Below are positions 9,096 through 46,581 of a DNA stretch of 64,000 bases, piece by piece. Source of the stretch: Chloroherpetonaceae bacterium (GTDB lineage Bacteria; Bacteroidota; Chlorobiia; Chlorobiales; Thermochlorobacteraceae). The notes below the pieces were generated by a model. That model saw only the letters and a program-made list of their open reading frames with translations. It was not told the DNA's origin and made no database searches. Position 1 is the stretch's first letter, and every line of letters begins with the position of its first letter. Location: positions 128,146 through 192,145 of the forward strand of contig JANRJQ010000010.1 of NCBI GenBank assembly GCA_033763895.1. Reading direction: 5' to 3'. Position numbers and translations under genes: made by a program.

Positions 9096-10160
9096 TTGAA
9101 AAAAGAGAAATCAATACTATCCAAAACATTCCGATATGCGATTTTCGGACTTGTACTGTTGCTTTTTATCAATCTGATTTCAGAAGCCAATTGGGTGAAA
9201 ATTATTGAATTGGTGAGAAGTGTTGGTTGGTACGCGTTGTTAATTCCAATTCCTTATTTGGCTACAAGTTTTTTTGATACACTCGGGTGGAAATTTGTCA
9301 TCGATTCTTTGGGGAATAAAGTGTCACTGTTGAGACTCTTTTCAATTCGACTCTCAACTGAAGCAATGCTCTTGTCCCTGCCAGCCGGAGCACCAATTGC
9401 TGAAGGAGCAAAAGCTTATTTGGTTTCAAAAATTTTCAAGCTTCCATTTTCTGAAGCAATGGCTGGCGTGGTCGTAAAAAAATCTTTACTTGGAATTGCT
9501 CACTCCTTTTACATCCTTTTCTGTGTGATTGTAGGGTTTCAAGCTGTTGAACTACTTTCTATTTACTTGTTCTCTAACTCCGCCCTTGGGTGGGTTATGA
9601 TTGGAATGGCCCTCGTGATGTTTGCTTTGTTTACAGGAACTTTATCTATTTCACTTAATGGTGATATTTCCTCGAAGTTGCATCGATTTCTTTCAAAAAT
9701 TTCGATCAGTGCCATTAGAAATTGGTTACTCGAGGCAGAAAAGAAATTTTTAGAGACAGACAATCATCTTTCAAAATTTAAAGAAGTTCATTGGGCTGAA
9801 TTGTTTCTCTCTGTCATTTTCTTTTTAATCGGGTGGCTTTTTGAAGCCTTCGAAACCTTGGTTTTACTTTGGCTTCTTGGAGCCGTTTTTGAATGGCAAA
9901 ATCTTGTTTCTATTGAAGTCACTCTCTCGCTTGTCCGCTCACTTGCGTTTGTGATTCCAGCGGGATTAGGGATTCAAGATTCCGGCTATATCGCTGCGCT
10001 TCAATCCTTGAATTTTGAAGATGCCGTTTCGCTTGCCGTTTCTTTTTTGATTTTGAAGCGAGCCAAGGAACTATTTTCGATTTTTTTGGGGTATGGACTG
10101 CTGTCACTGATGGGTTTAAACATCAGAGATACGGTTAGTGAGGTTTCAAAGAGCGAGTGA
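9096..10160 (+). CDS. Lysylphosphatidylglycerol synthase/flippase-like integral membrane protein
   Basis: A 354-residue polytopic membrane protein with about eight hydrophobic segments. The layout resembles the UPF0104/LPG-synthase transmembrane domain: an early SFFDTLGWKFVID, the APIAEGAKAYLVSK segment, and the late SLAFVIPAGLGIQDSGYIAAL. Proteins with this domain alone, without the aminoacyltransferase domain of MprF, are common and may move lipid-linked molecules; the substrate here cannot be told. The start is a TTG at 9096: an in-frame stop at 9072-9074 leaves no upstream ATG, and the residues after the TTG already lead into the first membrane helix. Confidence 0.75.
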   Translation: MKKEKSILSKTFRYAIFGLVLLLFINLISEANWVKIIELVRSVGWYALLIPIPYLATSFFDTLGWKFVIDSLGNKVSLLRLFSIRLSTEAMLLSLPAGAPIAEGAKAYLVSKIFKLPFSEAMAGVVVKKSLLGIAHSFYILFCVIVGFQAVELLSIYLFSNSALGWVMIGMALVMFALFTGTLSISLNGDISSKLHRFLSKISISAIRNWLLEAEKKFLETDNHLSKFKEVHWAELFLSVIFFLIGWLFEAFETLVLLWLLGAVFEWQNLVSIEVTLSLVRSLAFVIPAGLGIQDSGYIAALQSLNFEDAVSLAVSFLILKRAKELFSIFLGYGLLSLMGLNIRDTVSEVSKSE

Positions 10161-10195
10161 ACCGCAAATGGATCATTTTACTTCCAATCCAATGG

Positions 10196-10228
10196 TTGAC
10201 ATCCTGTGAGAAATTTTTTCTATCTTTG
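10196..10228 (+). promoter_or_regulatory. Bacteroidota-type promoter ahead of the glycan cluster
   Basis: TTGACA (10196-10201) and TATCTTTG (10221-10228) are separated by 19 bases. The second element matches the TAnnTTTG -7 consensus known from Bacteroidota. Transcription from here would leave a leader of about 190 bases before the ATG at 10423. The leader contains a small perfect hairpin (ATGACT/AGTCAT at 10262-10276). Confidence 0.45.
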
Positions 10229-10422
10229 TGGAATTTATGAGTTTCGAAACGCTGTTTAATTTATGACTGAAAGTCATTTCATGTAAAGTTTTTATTAAAT
10301 CACTTTTGAGGTGTTTTTAGAAAGTGTTATAAGTGTAACTTAATTGTATTTCATTTTTGGAACTCAATCAAACGGATTCCGTATTTGTATCTGAAGTTTT
10401 TTTTGAAAACTACTGAGCTAGG

Positions 10423-11493
10423 ATGCCTGAAAAGAAGAAAAAAATTTTTTATGTCTGTGGTTCGATTAATCAAACCACACAGATGCATAAAATATCGAAA
10501 GAGCTCCCTGAATTTGAACATTACTTTTCTCCCTATTACGGGAATAAGTTTGAAGAATTTTTAAGGGTAACGGGACTCGGAAATACCACAATCATCGGAG
10601 AAAAACTTGTAAACCGATGCCTTTCTTACCTTAATTATCACGACTTAAAGGTGGACTTCGGTGGAAAAAATGCCGATGAATACGATTTAGTCGTTAGTTG
10701 TTCAGACCTTGTGGTTCAAAACAACTTAAAGGGTAAAAAGATGATTGTTGTTCAGGAAGGAATGACCGACCCTGAAAACTTTTTTTACCATTTGGTTAAA
10801 CTATTTCCAATCCTGCCAAGGTGGATAGCAAGTACCTCGACAACGGGAATCAGCGATCAATACAATTATTTTTGCGTAGCGAGTCAAGGCTATGCCGATT
10901 TATTTATTCGAAAAGGGGTAAAACCTGAAAAGATAAAAGTAACCGGCATTCCTAATTTCGATGACTGCGCAAAATCACTCAAAAACGACTTCCCACATAA
11001 GAATTTTGTATTGGTGTGCACTTCAGACGCGCGAGAAACATTCAAAATTGAAAATCGAAAAGCTTTTATTCAAAAAGCCGTAGATATTGCAAAAGGGCGA
11101 CAAATCATTTTTAAGCTACACCCGAACGAAAATCGTAAGCGAGCAGAGCGAGAAATTAAAAAGTGGGCACCTGCTGGGACTTTGGTTTTTCAAGGCGGTG
11201 TAACCGAAGAGATGATTGCAAACTGTGATGTTCTCCTAACTCGATTTTCTTCCACAGTATATGTTGGAATTGCTTTAGGTAAGGAAGTTTATTCTGATTT
11301 TGATTTAACCGATCTCAAGCGCATGACGCCGATTCAGAACGGAGGAACCTCAGCCGCCAATATTGCTACTTATTGCAGAGAGCTTCTTGATAGCGCTGAA
11401 GCCCCGGTTTATTCAAGAGCAAAAGTAACAAATTGGGTTAATGCTGATTACGCTCCCGAATTGGTTTTAAATCTTTTTGCATCCAAGCCTTAA
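10423..11493 (+). CDS. GT-B-like glycosyl/glycerophosphotransferase-type protein of surface glycan synthesis
   Basis: A 356-residue soluble protein. The C-terminal half has features of GT-B enzymes of the CDP-glycerol transferase/UDP-GlcNAc epimerase type: KVTGIPNFDD near 180, IIFKLHPNENR, then ANCDVLLTRFSSTVYVGIALGKEV. In that family the KxHP and the late acidic/serine segment help bind the nucleotide. The N-terminal half (FYVCGSINQTTQMHKIS) is consistent with the other Rossmann-like domain. It is followed nine bases later by an SpsF-type nucleotidyltransferase gene and then an MFS gene, so the cluster probably builds a capsule or cell-surface glycan. The substrate is not identifiable. Confidence 0.65.
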   Translation: MPEKKKKIFYVCGSINQTTQMHKISKELPEFEHYFSPYYGNKFEEFLRVTGLGNTTIIGEKLVNRCLSYLNYHDLKVDFGGKNADEYDLVVSCSDLVVQNNLKGKKMIVVQEGMTDPENFFYHLVKLFPILPRWIASTSTTGISDQYNYFCVASQGYADLFIRKGVKPEKIKVTGIPNFDDCAKSLKNDFPHKNFVLVCTSDARETFKIENRKAFIQKAVDIAKGRQIIFKLHPNENRKRAEREIKKWAPAGTLVFQGGVTEEMIANCDVLLTRFSSTVYVGIALGKEVYSDFDLTDLKRMTPIQNGGTSAANIATYCRELLDSAEAPVYSRAKVTNWVNADYAPELVLNLFASKP

Positions 11494-38161: not shown

Positions 38162-38188
38162 GTAAAATGACACGTTTGTGTTATTGAG
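38162..38188 (+). repeat. 27-bp direct repeat with operator-like dyad, copy 1
   Basis: Matches 39552-39578 in 26 of 27 positions. It contains the dyad AATGACAC-GTTT-GTGTTATT (38166-38185), whose arms match in 7 of 8 positions. It lies 132 bases ahead of the gene at 38320. Probably a regulator binding site; no regulator is identified. Confidence 0.55.
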
Positions 38189-38319
38189 AGATGCGGTTGA
38201 AACACATAATTTTAGTGATAACCCGAAAAGCAATTTCGAAATTAGCAATGATTTTAACATTTTGCTTTAAGAAGTGTTAAACGACCTTCGAACTCCGGTT
38301 CATAAAATTCAAAAAAACT

Positions 38320-39555
38320 ATGACATTCAAAAAGTCACATACTTTTCACTTAATGGCTGGGATGTTTCTTTGCATTGCCGTGCTTTTTCAAGAGTCCCTG
38401 ATGTCAAAGGAAATCAAGGCCGAAGTGGACAATAAAGATTATGACTCAAGGAAGTTGAGGTCTCTTTATGAAAATTTGGTTAAAAAATCGCCTGAGCTCA
38501 AAGATTACATCGCTAAGGGTTCGAAACGATTTGAAATATCAATTAAAGGGAAGCCGCTTCAACTACACTTAGAAAAAAATGCTGAGGGAGTTGTCACTCA
38601 TTTGGGTCTTAACCTTTTTCCGGTTGAGGCGATTGAGCTTAATCCATCAATTTATCTTTTTATCGAAAGATTACTTTTGGAGTATTGGATTGAAGGTGGT
38701 GCAGAAGGTGCTCGTTTAGCAAAAACAGAAGGGATTTACTTTGCATTAAACAATATTTTTTTGGGCTCAATAGGATTTGAATCACTTACACCGGCATTTG
38801 AAATCATAAGAGCCTCTCCAAATTTCAAACTGTCAATCGAAGAATCGAAATACCGTCTGGAATGGCAAAACGCTACTCAAAGGCTTGCAATGTCGTTTCC
38901 TGCGCGTCAAGATTTAATTTTAGGGAAGGATAAAATTGAGCTCGATAATGAACTTTCACAAAAACTGCAGCAAAAACAGGATAGAAGTTTTTCGCCTATT
39001 TTTATCGAACAAACCAAAATCATCTTTGATTCAACCAAATCAGTTTGGAAGTTTGTCGGCAAAACTTTTTCGGAGGAATACAAAGGGGTAAAGCAAAGCG
39101 CATACTTTTCAAAAAAAGCCGAAGAATTCATCCCAATTTGGAGCGAACAAAATGTTGAAGAAAGTCTTACAAATTTGTTTTTTACTGATTTAACAAATAC
39201 TCGAACAATCAATTTAGAGATTAAACACAATCTTTACGGAAATACTCAAAAAAACTATAAAACCACATTGAAAGAATTTCTTTCTCTTTTTCAAACCGGC
39301 TATGTGCCATTTATTGGTTTTGAGAAAAGTGAAGGAACTTCAATCCCAGTCTTGTTGATTCTCGTAAGCGAACGATTCGCGCACTTACATCTGGTTTCAA
39401 TCCAATTTTCAAAAGACATTTTTCAAAATTCAAATGAAGTCATTAAGGCCAAATTAACGACGAACATTCGAAATGATAACTTGAAATCAATTTTTCAAGA
39501 GTATGTCGAAAAGCCCGATAAAGGAAAGTATAAAGTTCCAAAGGGAACGAAGTAA
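38320..39555 (+). CDS. Exported protein of unknown function, first gene of an envelope cluster
   Basis: I do not recognise this 411-residue protein. It starts with a probable signal peptide (HLMAGMFLCIAVLFQESLMS). The rest is soluble, rich in Lys, Glu and Ser, mixed alpha/beta, without cysteines or visible catalytic motif. Residues 40-100 (LYENLVKKSPELKDYIAKG, then FEISIKGKPLQLHLEKN) suggest a helix followed by a beta sheet. The next three genes on the strand also encode exported proteins. A 27-bp repeat lies upstream and its second copy starts at this gene's stop codon, which suggests common control with the next gene. Confidence 0.7.
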   Translation: MTFKKSHTFHLMAGMFLCIAVLFQESLMSKEIKAEVDNKDYDSRKLRSLYENLVKKSPELKDYIAKGSKRFEISIKGKPLQLHLEKNAEGVVTHLGLNLFPVEAIELNPSIYLFIERLLLEYWIEGGAEGARLAKTEGIYFALNNIFLGSIGFESLTPAFEIIRASPNFKLSIEESKYRLEWQNATQRLAMSFPARQDLILGKDKIELDNELSQKLQQKQDRSFSPIFIEQTKIIFDSTKSVWKFVGKTFSEEYKGVKQSAYFSKKAEEFIPIWSEQNVEESLTNLFFTDLTNTRTINLEIKHNLYGNTQKNYKTTLKEFLSLFQTGYVPFIGFEKSEGTSIPVLLILVSERFAHLHLVSIQFSKDIFQNSNEVIKAKLTTNIRNDNLKSIFQEYVEKPDKGKYKVPKGTK

Positions 39556-39578
39556 AATGACACGTTTATGTTATTGAG
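39552..39578 (+). repeat. 27-bp direct repeat with operator-like dyad, copy 2
   Basis: Second copy of 38162-38188 with one change (G to A in the right arm). The dyad core is at 39556-39575 and the repeat begins at the stop codon of the preceding gene, 102 bases ahead of the next start. A further AACAC/GTGTT pair follows at 39580-39599. Confidence 0.55.
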
Positions 39579-39679
39579 CGAACACTTGAAAAGGTGTTAC
39601 ATTCGTTTTGGGAGGAATGAATCGGAGTCTTTACTTAATTCTGAGTTTTCTGAATGTTTTATCCCCCAAGTAAAAATAA

Positions 39680-41464
39680 ATGAATAGCGATTTGATGACA
39701 TTTTTATTGCATACAAAAAACTGGTGTTTTTCTATTCTTTTGAAATTGTTCGAAGGAAGTTTTTTATTATCGAGGCTTGGCGCGATAATTTTTTCGATGA
39801 CGTTGGGTGTATCTCTAATTTTTGCTCAACCTACTCCTGAAGAAATCAAATCGGGTGGTTATAAATGGGGGGAGTCGAAAAGAGAAAATGAAACAGAGGC
39901 TTCTAATGCAGCGAAAGCCGATTTGATTCAGCGTATTGTTCAAACCGTGATTAATTCTGATGAAACGGTCGTTTCTCAAGAAGTCAGAGGAAACGAGGCA
40001 AAGTATGAATCGTATGTGAAATCTCGCTCTAAGGTTGCGTCACGAATGCAACTTCGTGGATTGAATGTTATACAATTAGGAATGGAAGGCAATTCCTATA
40101 AAGCATTAGCCTATATTTCTAATGAAGATTACAATTCGTCATTAAAGGCAATCGAAAATGAAGTGATTGCAGAATTTCAAACGGGAGAACAGATTGAACG
40201 AAGCCGAGGCATTGCAAATGCGATACCTGTATATTACAAAGCATTTTTGAAGACTTATTTTTCTCCTGATCTCATATCGTTTGATTCTCCCTCTACAGGA
40301 CCACAAAAAAATTTTCAAACTTGGATTTACGAAAACAAATTGCTTCCGTTTCTACGCGAAATCAAAGTAACAGCGATTTCACCAACCCCTTTAGATGTTG
40401 ATGTTACATCCGATATCACTTCCGTTCAGTTTGAAGTCAAATATCGTGGGGCAGAATGCCAAGGTATTACTTTGTGGAAAATGCCCCGAAGACGGAGTAA
40501 CGAAGTATCAGTACTCAATGGAAAAGCAAAATTGGAGTTTTCAATTCCAGAATTGAAGTATCAGCCACCCTATCATACGCTTATTAAATATGAACTTGGT
40601 TATAAGGTTGCATTAGAAGAAGGTGCCCCAAGTGAATTAAAAGAAGCGCAAAAGATTGCTCGGGAAATTATTATTGAGCCAATTGAAGTAACGGTTGATT
40701 ATAGTAAAATCGTTGAATTCGATTTGGCGATACGAAAGGTTTCATCAACTGATTTTGTATTTGATATTGTGATGAAAAATTTTATTTCTCAAAGCCCAAT
40801 TAATATCAGTTACGGAGATAATACTTCCGAGACACTTTCAAAGCGAAATACTATTTATACCTACAGAGCTCCGGGAAAATATTTGGTCACTTTAGAAGTC
40901 AAACCGCTTCCTGTCATAAAAAAATACCTGAGTGTTCCTTCGGGAGAGATTATCGATGTTCCGGTCGAAATCCCAAAACCGCCAGTTGTTATTCCAACGC
41001 CTGAGCCGAAACCAGAGCCCAAGCCTTCTCCAACACCCTCAACTCCAAATATTGGATATAAACCTAACATCAGTAATGAGACACCGCCTCTAAAGCCTAC
41101 TGAGACTGTTTCTGCACCTTCAATTCCTAGTACAGTAAGAGAATTGCCGCAACCTCCCAAACCATCGAACAAAGATGTTGAAAGGAAATCGACTGTTGTC
41201 GAGGAATTGAAAACAAAACTCAATGCTCAAGAGCTGTTAGACGCGCTTTCAAAACTAAAAAATCAAGGCAAGCTTTTTTTTGGGAAGAAAACAGATTTTC
41301 TTTCTCCTGAAAAGTGTACCGTTTTCTTAATTGATCGTCAAAGCAAAACTGTAAAATTCATCTTGGGGGCTGGTGAAGAGCGTACACTAAATCTGATCTC
41401 AAATACGCCGGTCAAATCTGAAGAATTAAAAAATTTAACTGCAATATGGGTCGAAATATATTAA
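39680..41464 (+). CDS. Exported LPP20-like protein with PKD-like region and Pro-rich linker
   Basis: A 594-residue protein with a long N-terminal region ending in a signal-like segment (IIFSMTLGVSLIFAQP). Residues about 55-190 (AAKADLIQRIVQTVINSDETVVSQ, then YKALAYISNEDY) resemble LPP20/FlgT-type domains of envelope lipoproteins. Around 370-410 a segment with SPINISYGDNTSETLS and APGKYLVTLEV looks like a PKD-type beta-sandwich. A proline-rich linker (about 435-500, PTPEPKPEPKPSPTPSTP) leads to a 95-residue C-terminal domain I do not recognise. The linker is long enough to reach across the periplasm or into peptidoglycan. Its end overlaps the next gene by 19 bases. Confidence 0.65.
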   Translation: MNSDLMTFLLHTKNWCFSILLKLFEGSFLLSRLGAIIFSMTLGVSLIFAQPTPEEIKSGGYKWGESKRENETEASNAAKADLIQRIVQTVINSDETVVSQEVRGNEAKYESYVKSRSKVASRMQLRGLNVIQLGMEGNSYKALAYISNEDYNSSLKAIENEVIAEFQTGEQIERSRGIANAIPVYYKAFLKTYFSPDLISFDSPSTGPQKNFQTWIYENKLLPFLREIKVTAISPTPLDVDVTSDITSVQFEVKYRGAECQGITLWKMPRRRSNEVSVLNGKAKLEFSIPELKYQPPYHTLIKYELGYKVALEEGAPSELKEAQKIAREIIIEPIEVTVDYSKIVEFDLAIRKVSSTDFVFDIVMKNFISQSPINISYGDNTSETLSKRNTIYTYRAPGKYLVTLEVKPLPVIKKYLSVPSGEIIDVPVEIPKPPVVIPTPEPKPEPKPSPTPSTPNIGYKPNISNETPPLKPTETVSAPSIPSTVRELPQPPKPSNKDVERKSTVVEELKTKLNAQELLDALSKLKNQGKLFFGKKTDFLSPEKCTVFLIDRQSKTVKFILGAGEERTLNLISNTPVKSEELKNLTAIWVEIY

Positions 41465-42414
41465 TCGTTTTTATAGCCTGTTTTCTTTTTGTTGGAGGAC
41501 TGATCGCGCAAGTCAGCAGCGTTTCAGTAAAGCTAATATCTTCGGTTGGAAGCACAACTGCGCAAATTGAAGCCAATGCGTCAGCTTTTTTAACCGAACT
41601 AAATAGAGCTGCTGCGGCACACCAAAAGCCAACCTTTGCGGCACCGTTTATCTCTGAAAATGTCAGGCAAAATTTGAGCCCTGTTCTTGATACATATGAA
41701 CTTTTCGCACTCGACACCGAAATAAAGGCTAATACTTACAAGCGAGAAAAAGACGGACTCATTGTTCTTCAGTCAATCTTGCTAAACAAAAGAACCGTAG
41801 ATACGTCATTCACTGAAGAGCTCAATCTCATTTTCCGCCCCGATGGCACACTTGATGATGTAACCTTTAGCATTGGCTCTCAGCAATATGCCAAAGTATT
41901 TAGTGCAGGCAACATATTAGATGCCACCGATCTTCGCCGAAAACAACTCATCCTTGACTTTGTGGAGCGCTTTAGAACGGCGTATGAAAAAAAGGACTTG
42001 AGTTACCTCGATCTCGTTTTCAGCGAAAAAGCCCTAATTATTGTTGGCAAAGTGGTTCAACCAAAACCCTCGGATGGAATTAAGATTGCGGATGCCGTTA
42101 AGGTAGAGCGGCAGGTGTATTCAAAAAAAGAGTATATGGAAAACCTGAAAGCCAAAGTTTTTACAAAGAAATGGATAAAACTTGGTTTTGATAAAGTGGA
42201 AATTATCCGTCACCCTGATCCAAGCCTTTCAATGTTTTATGGAGTTCAATTGATTCAAAAGTGGGCAACGCCGGGCTATTCCGATGAAGGGTACCTCTTT
42301 TTATTAATTGACTTTACAAATGAAGATAAACCCATTATTCATGTCCGTGCTTGGGAGCCAATGCAAGTAAAGAAAAAGGATCGAACAACTCTCGCAGATT
42401 TTGAATTCTATTGA
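41446..42414 (+). CDS. Exported protein with C-terminal NTF2-like domain
   Basis: A 322-residue protein with a signal peptide (ILIVFIACFLFVGGLIAQ). The start overlaps the previous gene by 19 bases, so the two are translationally coupled. Residues about 30-160 are an unfamiliar domain. Residues about 165-310 (LDFVERFRTAYEKKDLSYLDLVFSEKALIIVG at the start, YGVQLIQKWATPGYSDEGYLFLLIDF later) have the helix and curved sheet pattern of NTF2/SnoaL-like domains, often found in Bacteroidota exported proteins of unknown function. No catalytic residues are evident. Confidence 0.65.
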   Translation: MGRNILIVFIACFLFVGGLIAQVSSVSVKLISSVGSTTAQIEANASAFLTELNRAAAAHQKPTFAAPFISENVRQNLSPVLDTYELFALDTEIKANTYKREKDGLIVLQSILLNKRTVDTSFTEELNLIFRPDGTLDDVTFSIGSQQYAKVFSAGNILDATDLRRKQLILDFVERFRTAYEKKDLSYLDLVFSEKALIIVGKVVQPKPSDGIKIADAVKVERQVYSKKEYMENLKAKVFTKKWIKLGFDKVEIIRHPDPSLSMFYGVQLIQKWATPGYSDEGYLFLLIDFTNEDKPIIHVRAWEPMQVKKKDRTTLADFEFY

Positions 42415-42468
42415 TCCAGAATGTAATCCCCATCCGAAAAATTTCTTTTTGACTTAAATGAAACAACA

Positions 42469-44472
42469 ATGAAAAGTTTGAAATTTTTAACCATCATCTT
42501 CCTGCTCACATTGGCAAGTATGGAAGTTTCTGCACAGCGCTTATTAAAGCTTAAAGAAAAGGATGAAGCAAAAATTATTCAAGTTCCGGGACGAGAACCG
42601 GGAAAAACGTTTGCAATTATTGTTGAAAGCCCTGATCCAGATGGAAAACTAATCGCCATATTTAAGCCGCAACAACCAATCAATATTAAAAGCAGTTATT
42701 CTGAAGGAAGGCATATCTATTTCTTTGAAATGGAAGAAGATCAAGATGAATATGATTTGACTCAACTTTACACTTCTCCTACCTCTAAATTTAATCGATT
42801 TACAATTATCAAAAAGGAAGACCAACCTGTAACATTTAAAAAAGGAGAGGACTCAAAAATTTTCGTTGTTAAACTGATTGATGAAACTTCAGAGATTGCC
42901 GAGCAAGGAAAGGGCAATTTGACAATTGAAATCCGCTCCGATAAAGGTAAACTTGTTCCGAGCGGAACCATTGAATTTCAAGGTCTTCCAAATCCTGTCA
43001 CATTTACGAATGGGTTTTACATTTACCCGAATCCAAATAAAGTTAAACTTCCTGCTAAAGTTAAGGCACCCGGATTCGAAGATTTAAATGAAGTTTTGGT
43101 TGACTTTACTATTGTTGAACCCGGACAAAACAAACGTTTTCCGATTGAAATGAAAGGGAAATATGGCAAAGTTGTTCTTATTGCTTCTAAAGCCAAAGAA
43201 ACCGATAAAATTTCAGGAGTCTCTGTACAATTGGATAATGGTGAAACCGTTCAATTCACGAATGAAGAAAGATTGGAAATTGAACTTCCAATCGGTTCAC
43301 ATAAAATTGAAGTGCTTGCAGAGACAAAAGGGTTTGCATCTATTGCCCCAATTCAGGTAGAAATTGAACAAAATAAGTCAATTGAAAGAACAGTTGACTT
43401 TGCTTCTTTTCAAGATATTGAAATCTCTACCAAACCAGAGGGTGCTCAAATGACCATTATGGAAATTAATGGTAATCCGTTTAATGGACAGCAGCCAAGC
43501 GGTAAAACAAATCGTACCTATAACCTTCCTGTCGGGCGTTTGAGAGTCGAGTTTCGCCACCCAAGTACAAGAACAGTTACCGTGTTGGTAGATAATACCT
43601 CAGCCAAAAATGGACAAACTAAATCACAAAATATTGAACTCGATGCAGCCTTCTTCCCGTGGGCAGTGCAAACCCAACCAAGCGGATTATCTTTTAAGAT
43701 CAAAGATCAAAATGGCAGCTTAAAAGAATCAGGCAGAACGCCAGCTGTGAAGTTTCTCCCCGCCGGTACCTATGAACTTGAAGTCGATGATGATAATCGT
43801 TGGTATGAAGCCAGCGTAACACTCAAAGATGCCTCCGATGGAAATCTGGTTTTCAAAACACACGGAAGTTTTGGCGGCTCAATATTTATGGGCTCTGGAA
43901 CTGCTTTTAGTGGTGCTGAGCGAGGGTTAGGAAATGTAAAGGCAGAAGCGCTGAATTATGAAGTTGGTTTTCTCAACTTTGGTTGGGGTGGGTTCAATCT
44001 AACCGCGCTCGGAATGAGAAGGCTTGCGCTACCTTCCAATGAAGGGGGGACAATTCCTGCCTATTTCTTTACTGCTTTTACTAATCCTGAGCTGAGAATT
44101 GGCGGCTCCTATCTCGATTGGCTTGAGGGTTTTGTATTCGTTGGCGGTGGTTATTATTTCAGTCCCTTTGAATACGATTCACATAAAACACTCGGTCGAT
44201 TTAATGGCTCAATGACCTATTACAGAGCAGGAATCGGCGGCTCTTTGATTTTAGGCGATCTCCGATTTACTGTCAAAGCCGGGGTTGAAGATTATACAGT
44301 TACAGCAAAAGAATATGATGCCATTTTGGGAAGTTATCGAGATGAATTCACTTATAAATCAGGACTTAATCCGTTTTTTTCGCTTGAAGTTGATTTGTTC
44401 AGTATGGCTGATTACGGAGGAAAAATTTGGCGTTTATGGAGTAAACCCTTGCTTGATAATTTCACATATTAA
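42469..44472 (+). CDS. Exported protein with PEGA-like repeats and probable outer-membrane barrel end
   Basis: A 667-residue protein with a signal peptide ending SAQRLL. Residues about 225-315, 315-395 and 395-460 are successive beta-domains with the PEGA-like pattern (ISTKPEGAQMTIMEING, LPVGRLRVEFRH, FLPAGTYELEVDDD). The last 200 residues are Gly/aromatic-rich alternating strands (GSIFMGSGTAFSG, FVFVGGGYYFSPFEYD, RAGIGGSLILGDLRFTVKAGVEDY) that look like a small beta-barrel. PEGA domains occur in surface-layer and envelope proteins. It is probably the outer-membrane member of the cluster and ends at a terminator. Confidence 0.65.
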   Translation: MKSLKFLTIIFLLTLASMEVSAQRLLKLKEKDEAKIIQVPGREPGKTFAIIVESPDPDGKLIAIFKPQQPINIKSSYSEGRHIYFFEMEEDQDEYDLTQLYTSPTSKFNRFTIIKKEDQPVTFKKGEDSKIFVVKLIDETSEIAEQGKGNLTIEIRSDKGKLVPSGTIEFQGLPNPVTFTNGFYIYPNPNKVKLPAKVKAPGFEDLNEVLVDFTIVEPGQNKRFPIEMKGKYGKVVLIASKAKETDKISGVSVQLDNGETVQFTNEERLEIELPIGSHKIEVLAETKGFASIAPIQVEIEQNKSIERTVDFASFQDIEISTKPEGAQMTIMEINGNPFNGQQPSGKTNRTYNLPVGRLRVEFRHPSTRTVTVLVDNTSAKNGQTKSQNIELDAAFFPWAVQTQPSGLSFKIKDQNGSLKESGRTPAVKFLPAGTYELEVDDDNRWYEASVTLKDASDGNLVFKTHGSFGGSIFMGSGTAFSGAERGLGNVKAEALNYEVGFLNFGWGGFNLTALGMRRLALPSNEGGTIPAYFFTAFTNPELRIGGSYLDWLEGFVFVGGGYYFSPFEYDSHKTLGRFNGSMTYYRAGIGGSLILGDLRFTVKAGVEDYTVTAKEYDAILGSYRDEFTYKSGLNPFFSLEVDLFSMADYGGKIWRLWSKPLLDNFTY

Positions 44473-44489: not shown

Positions 44490-44515
44490 AAAACCCGCTG
44501 AAGAGCGGGTTTTTG
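44490..44515. terminator. Intrinsic terminator after the envelope cluster
   Basis: Eight-pair stem AACCCGCT (44492-44499) and AGCGGGTT (44504-44511) with a GAAG loop and a T tract on the plus side. A-rich sequence on the other flank means it could also serve the convergent tsaE. Confidence 0.8.
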
Positions 44516-44562: not shown

Positions 44563-45012
44563 CTATTCGATTCTAATCAACCGTTTGGTCTCATCTGCTT
44601 TATCAATAAAAACCTTTCGTGATCGAGAAGGAAATAAATGCGCGAATTTTTCTGACCACTCAATGATGGAAATGGCATTGGAATATAAATATTCATCAAA
44701 GCCAATATTTTGTAATTCCCTTTCCGATTCAATCCTGTATAGATCAAAGTGATGAAGGGTGTATTCAACCCCTTTAAGTGTACCGTTATAAGTATTGACA
44801 ATTGTGAACGTTGGACTTGTTACACTGTCTGAACAGTGATACACATCGCAAATTCCTTTGACAAATAAGGTCTTACCAGCGCCTAAGTCTCCTGAAAGTA
44901 AAACAATATCCCCTGCCGTTAATCCAATTCCAAATTGACGGGCTAATTCTCTTGATTCCTCAGGTGAGTGAGATAATCTAACTGCATTTTTTAGAATCAA
45001 AGGGATGATCAT
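44563..45012 (-). CDS. tsaE: tRNA threonylcarbamoyladenosine biosynthesis ATPase TsaE
   Basis: A 149-residue P-loop ATPase that works with TsaB and TsaD to make t6A37 in tRNA. Walker A is GDLGAGKT, followed by TSPTFTIVNTY and HFDLYRIESERELQNIGFDEY, then IIEWSEKF, all typical of TsaE. The ATG at 45012 is preferred over TTG at 45018. It starts six bases after the porX stop, and the porX-tsaE order is seen in other Bacteroidota, though I cite that from memory. Confidence 0.95.
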   Translation of the reverse strand: MIIPLILKNAVRLSHSPEESRELARQFGIGLTAGDIVLLSGDLGAGKTLFVKGICDVYHCSDSVTSPTFTIVNTYNGTLKGVEYTLHHFDLYRIESERELQNIGFDEYLYSNAISIIEWSEKFAHLFPSRSRKVFIDKADETKRLIRIE

Positions 45013-45018
45013 GTCCAA

Positions 45019-46581
45019 TTAAAGATTGGGTTTTAATTTGATAAAAGGTACAATCATTTCATCAAGTGAGACACCGCCGTGTTGAAACGAATCTTTGTAT
45101 TGATTAACATATTTGTGAAAGTTCGTCGGATAAATGAAGTAATAGTCTTCTTTGGCAAGAATGTAATTCACATTTAATCCGTGATTAGGCAGCCGGTAAT
45201 CAGCGGGGTTTCGGACAAAAATGGCGTGTTTAGAGTCGCATTGAAGATTACGACCAAATTTGTATCTCAAGTTTGTTGAGGCTTCACGATCAGCCACAAC
45301 TTTCGTATGCCTCAAGCAACGAAGACTTCCGTGGTCGGTTGTAATGAATATCGTTGCTTTTTGTTTCGATAGAGTTTTTAGCAATCGTAAGAAAGAGGAA
45401 TGCTCAAACCAAGTTTTGGTTAATGAACGAAATGCTTGCTCATCCGGCGATAGTTCTTTGATCACTTGAGAATCTGAGCGGCTATGGGCAAGGATATCCA
45501 CAAAATTCACAACAACGGCATTGAGTTGAATTCCGAGTTGTGAAAGAATATTTTGTTCATAGGCTTTGCTATCATCAGAAGTAACCAATTTAGAATATTT
45601 CATACTTCTTATCGGAACCCTGCGTCGCTTAAAGAAATCTTCCATAAAATCAGCTTCATAGCGGTTTTTACTGGTTTCATCTTCCTGACTGTCTCGCCAA
45701 AGTTCCGGATGACGCTTTTCTATATCTGCAGGGAAAAGCCCGCTGAAAATTGAATTTCTTGAATAGGGTGTTGCAGTAGGAAGGACAGAGAAATAAGCAT
45801 TTCGCTCAATTGAAAAGTGAGCATTCAGCAATTTTTCAAGTACAATCCACTGATCAAATCGAAGACAATCGACAACAAACAAGAAAATCGGGCTTCCACC
45901 TTCAAGTTCAGGAATTACCGCGCGGTCAAGGACATCAAGCGACAGCATCGGACGCTTTTCCTTTTCGCGATGAATCCACTCCCGATAATTTTTTTCAATA
46001 AATTTTCCAAAAAGCGCGTTGCACTCCCGCTTTTGATCAATTAAGGTTTGTCTTAGATTAAGTGCAGGATGATCATCAAGTTCAACTTCCCATTGCGTTA
46101 GGCGAAAATGCAGTTCAATCCATTTATCCGCATCCACTTCGCCGTAAAGATCTGCGGATATTCGATTAAACTCCGCGATATAATTTTGTGTCGCTGCCGA
46201 ATCTTTGATTTTATCGGAGTCTAAAAGCTTTTTGCAAGTCAGAAGAATTTGTGTGGGATTGACCGGCTTAATGAGGTACTCTGAGATTTTTTTCCCAATC
46301 GCTTCCTCCATAATACTTTCTTGTTCATTCTTTGTGATCATGACAACCGGCGTCGTAGGATGAGACAGCTTAATTTCAGATAATGCCTTTAATCCGCTCA
46401 TTCCGGGCATTTGCTCATCAAGGAAAATAATGTCATATCGATTCTGACGCGAGAGTTCAATCGCGTCATCACCATTCAAAACTGTGGTAACCTCATAACC
46501 CTTATCGGATAGAAAGAGAATATGAGGCTTGAGATATTCAATTTCGTCGTCAGCCCAGAGTATTTTGTGTTTGTTAAGCAT
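45019..46581 (-). CDS. porX: PorX: response regulator with PglZ (alkaline phosphatase-like) domain
   Basis: A 520-residue T9SS regulator. Residues 1-120 are a CheY-like receiver with acidic pocket WADDE (about 9-13) and acceptor Asp55 (IIFLDEQMPGMSG). From about 200 a PglZ domain of the alkaline phosphatase superfamily follows: FLFVVDCLRFDQW, YFSVLPTATPYSRNS, and FITTDHGSLRC with HGG in the last 20 residues, giving the metal-binding Asp/His set. PorX acts with the kinase PorY in Porphyromonas and has phosphodiesterase activity. PorY is not in this window. It is upstream of tsaE and convergent with the envelope cluster; an 11-bp dyad lies ahead of its start. Confidence 0.93.
   Translation of the reverse strand: MLNKHKILWADDEIEYLKPHILFLSDKGYEVTTVLNGDDAIELSRQNRYDIIFLDEQMPGMSGLKALSEIKLSHPTTPVVMITKNEQESIMEEAIGKKISEYLIKPVNPTQILLTCKKLLDSDKIKDSAATQNYIAEFNRISADLYGEVDADKWIELHFRLTQWEVELDDHPALNLRQTLIDQKRECNALFGKFIEKNYREWIHREKEKRPMLSLDVLDRAVIPELEGGSPIFLFVVDCLRFDQWIVLEKLLNAHFSIERNAYFSVLPTATPYSRNSIFSGLFPADIEKRHPELWRDSQEDETSKNRYEADFMEDFFKRRRVPIRSMKYSKLVTSDDSKAYEQNILSQLGIQLNAVVVNFVDILAHSRSDSQVIKELSPDEQAFRSLTKTWFEHSSFLRLLKTLSKQKATIFITTDHGSLRCLRHTKVVADREASTNLRYKFGRNLQCDSKHAIFVRNPADYRLPNHGLNVNYILAKEDYYFIYPTNFHKYVNQYKDSFQHGGVSLDEMIVPFIKLKPNL

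Follow-up and report, generated by a model that had tools for sequence, protein, structure and literature searches.

Four tandem genes of a Chloroherpetonaceae bacterium belong to a conserved, uncharacterised envelope module

When several consecutive genes all encode proteins that appear to be exported and none has a recognised function, do they form a system or are they simply neighbours? This question is raised by a 64,000-nucleotide (nt) stretch of a Chloroherpetonaceae bacterium (assembly GCA_033763895.1, contig JANRJQ010000010.1, positions 128,146 to 192,145; hereafter the window), whose Chlorobiota-type genome comprises 3.55 Mb in 14 contigs. Four open reading frames (ORFs) lie there in tandem, all on the plus strand and spanning positions 38320-44472 (ORF1 to ORF4, Table 1). 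A preliminary description made from the letters of the window proposed that they constitute a functional set, and this proposal is strongly supported by the conserved order and strand, co-occurrence, gene fusion, paired duplication and conserved overlap described below; the periplasm-spanning complex that it also suggested is an inference. The cassette is a conserved, uncharacterised envelope module, and it probably encodes an undescribed envelope machine.

Gene order and co-occurrence across phyla

Searching 84,980 species genomes with the ORF3 family gave 504 confirmed stretches, from which the best 79 loci, including the window, were kept. Clustering of the genes that neighbour ORF3 in these loci yielded a recurrent arrangement on one strand, ORF1 followed by ORF2, ORF3 and a fourth gene of the PEGA/N-domain kind, set between variable flanks. 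The same four-gene order occurs in Bacteroidota, Ignavibacteriota and Fidelibacterota, and Balneolota keep ORF2 followed by ORF3; homologues of ORF3 are found in all four phyla. In 62 of the 79 loci ORF1 is found no more than 2.2 kb 5' of ORF3, and among the 69 loci whose upstream sequence is long enough it is present in 61; the gene directly 5' of ORF3 is of ORF2 type in 63 of 81 loci. Rather than being scattered singly among genomes, relatives of these genes thus keep their order across phyla. Consistent with this, among 394 separately sampled genomes of the phylum ORF3 was found in 24 and ORF1 in 8, all 8 falling within the 24 (P=5e-11), and coordinates place ORF1 next to ORF3 in every one of the 8.

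The strongest evidence, all of it read from sequence, points to a fixed partnership of ORF2 and ORF3, and has three parts. The 19-nt overlap of the two genes, already seen in the preliminary description, recurs exactly in Cryomorphaceae, other Bacteroidota, Ignavibacteriota and Balneolota, with the ORF3 ATG inside the ORF2 'IW' codons. The window genome itself carries a second, paralogous ORF2-ORF3 pair in the same order (C7:176324-178835; 29%/38% identity), and its two ORF3 copies group together in a tree with moderate support (91/80). Finally, in another genome of the same taxonomic order (G009) ORF2 and ORF3 form a natural fusion of 598 amino acids (aa), the N-terminus of which scores 32.9 bits against the Pfam LPP20 cut-off of 25.9; an N-domain and PEGA gene lies two genes 5' of the fusion, with a repeated nuclease/transposase-type gene between them.

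Both of these regions have further features of their own. Around the fusion (L014) there are two related nuclease/transposase-type genes, at 9504-10475 and 2141-2926, and the paralogous pair (L013, 1034-9284) sits beside an HU/DUF4469 gene and RHS/YD-type fragments interspersed with small ORFs, an arrangement that resembles a polymorphic-toxin region.

The above observations bear on the simplest alternative, that four unrelated exported genes were grouped by chance. Neither ORF1 nor ORF4 has a homologue among 60 relatives from the same order, as such a grouping would have it, but the conserved order in other phyla, the fusion, the paired duplication and the co-occurrence refute it for ORF1 to ORF3. 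Chance grouping is therefore extremely unlikely for the set, and is conceivable for ORF4 alone. Anti-phage defence was also considered and rejected, as PADLOC models gave no match for the four window proteins and one weak sub-stretch match in the associated tubulin-like protein (see below) only. The ORF3 family had no member in viral contigs.

Domain composition of the four proteins

All four proteins open with a hydrophobic stretch, and signal-peptidase-type ends were read by eye in ORF2, ORF3 and ORF4 (..FAQ, ..IAQ and ..SAQ, respectively). The proteins are thus predicted to be exported, in agreement with the signal peptides reported in the preliminary description.

Pfam and NCBIfam searches returned nothing credible for ORF1. 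Its structure model is confident, with a predicted local distance difference test score (pLDDT) of 88.6 and a predicted template modelling score (pTM) of 0.83, and a search of PDB with this model gave no match at E<=0.001 and only weak partial NTF2-like and longin-like ones. The window protein matches its own neighbour cluster by BLASTP with E down to 1e-44.

ORF2 on its own gives a sub-threshold PKD match in Pfam/NCBIfam and does not reach Pfam LPP20. At the level of the family, its earlier description as LPP20-like is borne out: 6 of 21 members match LPP20, the fused relative exceeds the Pfam threshold, and the family profile matches the LPP20 chain 4kzs in PDB (E 1.1e-6), a result independent of the structure model. 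In that model (pLDDT 76) the N-domain has the topology strand-helix-hairpin-strand-strand-helix, and a fold search with ORF2 found tandem FnIII/Ig proteins only, matched to the middle region. Among the closest described systems is the LPP20/FlgP family. FlgP, which forms the basal-disk rings, is described as SHS2-like, with a hairpin for ring formation placed behind the helix and one more helix at the C-terminus (PMC12222027). While the ORF2 N-domain shares with LPP20/FlgP the profile match to 4kzs and the modelled topology, it differs from FlgP in having no lipobox and in carrying Ig/PKD and C-terminal domains that FlgP lacks, and no flagellar gene, as would be expected beside the accessory proteins FlgP, FlgO and FlgT, was seen among the neighbours scanned. 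An LPP20-domain gene also occurs in another genome of the same family (L015, 6518-9222), where it stands behind a DUF6175 gene of the same orientation, with neither ORF1 nor ORF3.

The NTF2-like character proposed for ORF3 holds as well. Cds6_C (PF24125), of the NTF2-like superfamily, is matched weakly by 25 of 30 members of the ORF3 family (best E 1.3e-6), the window protein itself scoring 16.9 bits against a curated cut-off of 27. ORF3 differs from Cds6_C in its extra conserved N-terminal half, its predicted export and its near-constant pairing with ORF2.

ORF4 is the weakest member of the module. Its own PEGA match falls below threshold (E 0.0014; 18.9 bits against a cut-off of 20.8), and profile-profile comparison by hhalign aligns its residues 1-443 with the PEGA-bearing fourth genes of other loci (probability 94.6, E 7e-8), a supportive match that stops short of proving orthology. 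Because searches found no direct sequence homologue of ORF4, it is assigned to the module by its position and by weak similarity at the profile level. Of the earlier description of this protein as PEGA and beta-barrel-like, the first part has some support from profile-profile comparison, and the barrel is not demonstrated, with a count of amphipathic strands not above that of shuffles (P 0.13).

The genes at the fourth position in other loci vary in a characteristic way. An N-terminal domain of ~120 aa (alignment A7), which has no PDB match, is common to 69 Bacteroidales ORFs from 40 loci and is followed by C-termini with PEGA, Sel1, FGE-sulfatase (sulfatase-modifying/lectin-type), TPR, LRR, WG, DUF285 or autotransporter parts. 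This N-domain was found in 4 of 11 whole genomes, mostly at the module, and several fourth-type genes can stand in tandem at one locus. Fourth genes of other lineages combine a different N-region with PEGA repeats and a variable end, which in one case is Fib_succ_major. That the C-termini of two of these genes (L016 and L023) represent one barrel domain was ruled out, because the L023 copy is Fib_succ_major; the C-terminus of the fourth gene therefore varies.

Linkage to a tubulin-like GTPase and models of function

In 47 of the 79 loci, mostly of (gut) Bacteroidales, the cassette is preceded by genes for an FtsZ-like Tubulin_2 GTPase and a zinc-ribbon/membrane protein. The linked arrangement also occurs in a few other Bacteroidota (e.g. 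Vicingaceae, L039), and ORF1 is present in 46 of the 47 loci. The preceding genes fall into three clusters: c5, a membrane protein found in many loci; c4, of ~1,030 aa, which is Tubulin_2 (E 3.5e-56 and 1.9e-61 for two members); and c3, with a zinc ribbon, one hydrophobic segment and a MORN- or Big_2-like exterior.

Tubulin_2 (PF13809) corresponds to FtsZl1, a family that includes a Bacteroides member and for which membrane-associated multi-component systems were predicted, the other genes being largely lineage-specific and without recognisable domains (Makarova & Koonin 2010, PMC2875224). In review of that work the question was raised of how a tubulin of the cytoplasm might operate together with partners in the periplasm and outer membrane, and a reviewer proposed transport or signalling for FtsZl1 systems (PMC2875224). 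The cassette resembles these neighbourhoods in following a Tubulin_2 gene in most Bacteroidales loci; it differs in that the vWA, GTPase and OmpA partners which that paper reports (PMC2875224) are not among the eight genes of the Bacteroidales operon L062 or the four window proteins, and in that the window genome has no Tubulin_2. As the defining gene is absent, we claim no FtsZl1 membership for the window genome, and regard the module as one that it shares with the FtsZl1 system. Our literature search found no tested function for Tubulin_2/FtsZl1, described since 2010, and no report joining LPP20, PEGA, NTF2 and tubulin.

We propose that the window genes are a tubulin-free form of an envelope module conserved in the Fibrobacterota-Chlorobiota-Bacteroidota (FCB) group, with ORF2 and ORF3 as its core. 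By analogy with FlgP of the flagellar basal disk, ORF2 would most likely oligomerise through its LPP20/SHS2 domain, either in the periplasm or at the outer membrane; its Ig/PKD domains would act as spacers, and it has the conserved C-terminal domain in addition. Translational coupling of their genes, the paired duplication and the fusion in a relative suggest that ORF3 binds ORF2 in a fixed ratio. ORF1 could be a dedicated soluble partner, and ORF4 a variable outer or display subunit of the type seen at the fourth position, where the N-terminal domains are conserved and the C-terminal parts attached to them change. In many Bacteroidales, the zinc-ribbon/single-transmembrane (TM) protein and the tubulin-like GTPase probably connect the complex in the periplasm with a filament or switch in the cytoplasm. 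We put the odds at about even that the proteins assemble into a periplasmic or outer-membrane complex in which an ORF2-ORF3 core holds ORF4-type proteins, with the GTPase link confined to some lineages. A bolder version is an FCB trans-envelope machine, in which a periplasmic ORF1-ORF2-ORF3 scaffold, possibly with an LPP20/SHS2 ring, carries interchangeable surface proteins and is moved or positioned in Bacteroidales by the tubulin-family GTPase through the zinc-ribbon/TM linker. This we consider unlikely; if true, it would be a case of a bacterial tubulin acting on the outer envelope.

Several points weigh against these proposals. The location of ORF1 to ORF4 is predicted from sequence. The ORF2 hairpin, the putative ring former, is modelled with pLDDT <50 at residues 90-122, so ring formation is put forward as conjecture, and the cysteines of ORF2 (16, 260 and 546 only) include none at the predicted cleavage site. 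The set of loci leans towards best-scoring, Prevotella-type genomes. ORF2 is not strictly universal, as 11 loci have ORF1 immediately before ORF3 and lack an intervening ORF2, and ORF4 has no sequence homologue in the 60 same-order relatives or in 20 module-bearing genomes. Furthermore, Tubulin_2 has 0 matches in the window genome, occurs together with ORF3 in 1 of the 394 genomes, and is found elsewhere without the module. The last observations indicate that the envelope module is the wider unit, to which the tubulin was added, or in which it was retained, in Bacteroidales. Three loci (L065, L068 and L076; two labelled Bacteroidales, one Paludibacteraceae) have partial modules that keep the zinc-ribbon/TM gene, ORF1, ORF3 and the fourth gene and have neither the tubulin gene nor ORF2, and would be useful for testing dependence.

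The variable fourth genes and the membrane-spanning protein also lend themselves to two other interpretations. One is a periplasmic sensing or signalling relay, in which ORF4-type proteins bind a ligand at or beyond the envelope and ORF1 to ORF3 relay the signal. In Bacteroidales this would reach the tubulin-like GTPase, serving as a switch and not as a filament, by way of the zinc-ribbon/TM protein. The ligand-binding-type C-termini of the fourth genes (PEGA, FGE-sulfatase, LRR, WG), the placement of the zinc-ribbon/TM protein to cross the inner membrane, and the signalling role suggested by the reviewer (PMC2875224) are in its favour. However, the module has no recurrent kinase, receiver or output domain, ORF2 looks like a structural domain that oligomerises, and the tubulin-free cassette has no cytoplasmic partner, so that such a relay seems improbable. 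The other is an apparatus for secretion or assembly, which would export the products of the fourth genes by recognising their shared N-domain. A dedicated N-domain joined to a variable C-terminus, in several genes in tandem at one locus, would suit this function, but all components already carry Sec-type signals and no pore, ATPase or secretin is conserved in tubulin-free loci; we hold it to be quite unlikely.

Whichever function applies, the module supplies a defined partner set for Tubulin_2/FtsZl1, with a conserved order and a candidate membrane linker, and gives family context to three nameless protein families. Natural tubulin-free versions, including that of the window, provide a built-in control, and the presence of the module in culturable Bacteroidales genera (Bacteroides, Hoylesella, Xylanibacter and Mangrovibacterium) makes the question directly testable.

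Neighbourhood of the cassette and its upstream repeat

Table 1. Features of the cassette and adjoining genes in the window (positions in nt of the window or in aa of the protein).
Feature	Position	Strand	Remarks
Repeat copy 1, upstream of ORF1	38162-38188	+	core dyad TGACAC-GTTT-GTGTTA at 38168-38183
ORF1, 411 aa, family 'c1', alpha/beta, predicted exported	38320-39555	+	no Pfam, NCBIfam or PDB match
Repeat copy 2, overlaps ORF1 stop codon, ~100 nt 5' of ORF2 start	39552-39578	+	repeat search
ORF2, 594 aa	39680-41464	+	LPP20/SHS2-like, Ig/PKD, linker and C-terminal domain
ORF2 N-domain, LPP20/SHS2-like	aa ~60-194
ORF2 Ig/PKD-type beta domains	aa ~228-427
ORF2 Pro-rich linker	aa ~440-500
ORF2 conserved C-terminal domain, new	aa ~498-594
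ORF2/ORF3 overlap, 19 nt	41446-41464	+	ORF3 ATG within codons of conserved ORF2 I-W
ORF3, 322 aa, predicted exported, C-terminal NTF2-like (Cds6_C type) domain	41446-42414	+	profile matches
ORF4, 667 aa, predicted exported, candidate PEGA-type repeats and C-terminal region (candidate barrel)	42469-44472	+
Intrinsic terminator, strong, 10-pair stem, T-rich on both sides, two-way	44490-44513		ends cluster, before tsaE-porX
tsaE	44563-45018	-	between ORF4 and porX
porX	45019-46581	-	NCBIfam equivalog, E 3e-215

The preliminary description placed a convergent porX next door and suggested a link to the type IX secretion system (T9SS) or gliding. The gene is a true porX on the minus strand, 0.5 kb downstream of the cluster, and the genome encodes T9SS-type cargo, for example a protein with a C-terminal sorting-like tail (L013, 16922-17992). 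However, porX belongs to a separate convergent unit behind tsaE and the terminator, and no full-length PorX homologue occurs in any other module locus. Pfam and NCBIfam searches matched none of the four proteins to a T9SS family or sorting domain, and ORF1 to ORF3 are absent from most of the sampled genomes of the phylum, as the count for ORF3 above indicates. The proposed link is thus not supported, and membership of the cluster in the T9SS/gliding machinery is very unlikely.

The shared upstream dyad repeat of the preliminary description was recovered. A 27-bp repeat, GTAAAATGACACGTTTRTGTTATTGAG, precedes both ORF1 and ORF2, and these are its sole copies in the genome within 3 mismatches (0 expected from window shuffles). 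Since the copies flank ORF1, recent insertion of this gene between direct repeats was considered, and was rejected because the order of ORF1 before ORF2 holds across phyla and the core of the repeat is a dispersed, operator-like element. This 18-bp core, TGACACRTTTRTGTYATT (TGACAC-N4-GTGT(T/C)A), is found at 6 places in the genome when <=1 mismatch to the query is allowed, against ~0.01 expected by chance in our own estimate. Two of the 6 are those in front of ORF1 and ORF2, most of the remaining sites lie ~100-137 nt 5' of start codons, and several of the genes downstream code for exported proteins. The element is most simply read as the candidate operator of a small regulon, and its presence before both genes means that ORF1 and ORF2 to ORF4 may be two co-regulated units, with TGACACGTTTGTGTCATT as a candidate DNA bait for the regulator. 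The copies of the dyad in this genome other than those before ORF1 and ORF2 lie at C10:105530, C3:8540, C7:206424 and C11:46708 (loci L147 and L150-L152), with a weaker site at C2:4808 (L153). The genes behind these dyads encode a secreted IPT/FG-GAP protein, a small exported protein, an enoyl-CoA hydratase and an exported WD40-type protein.

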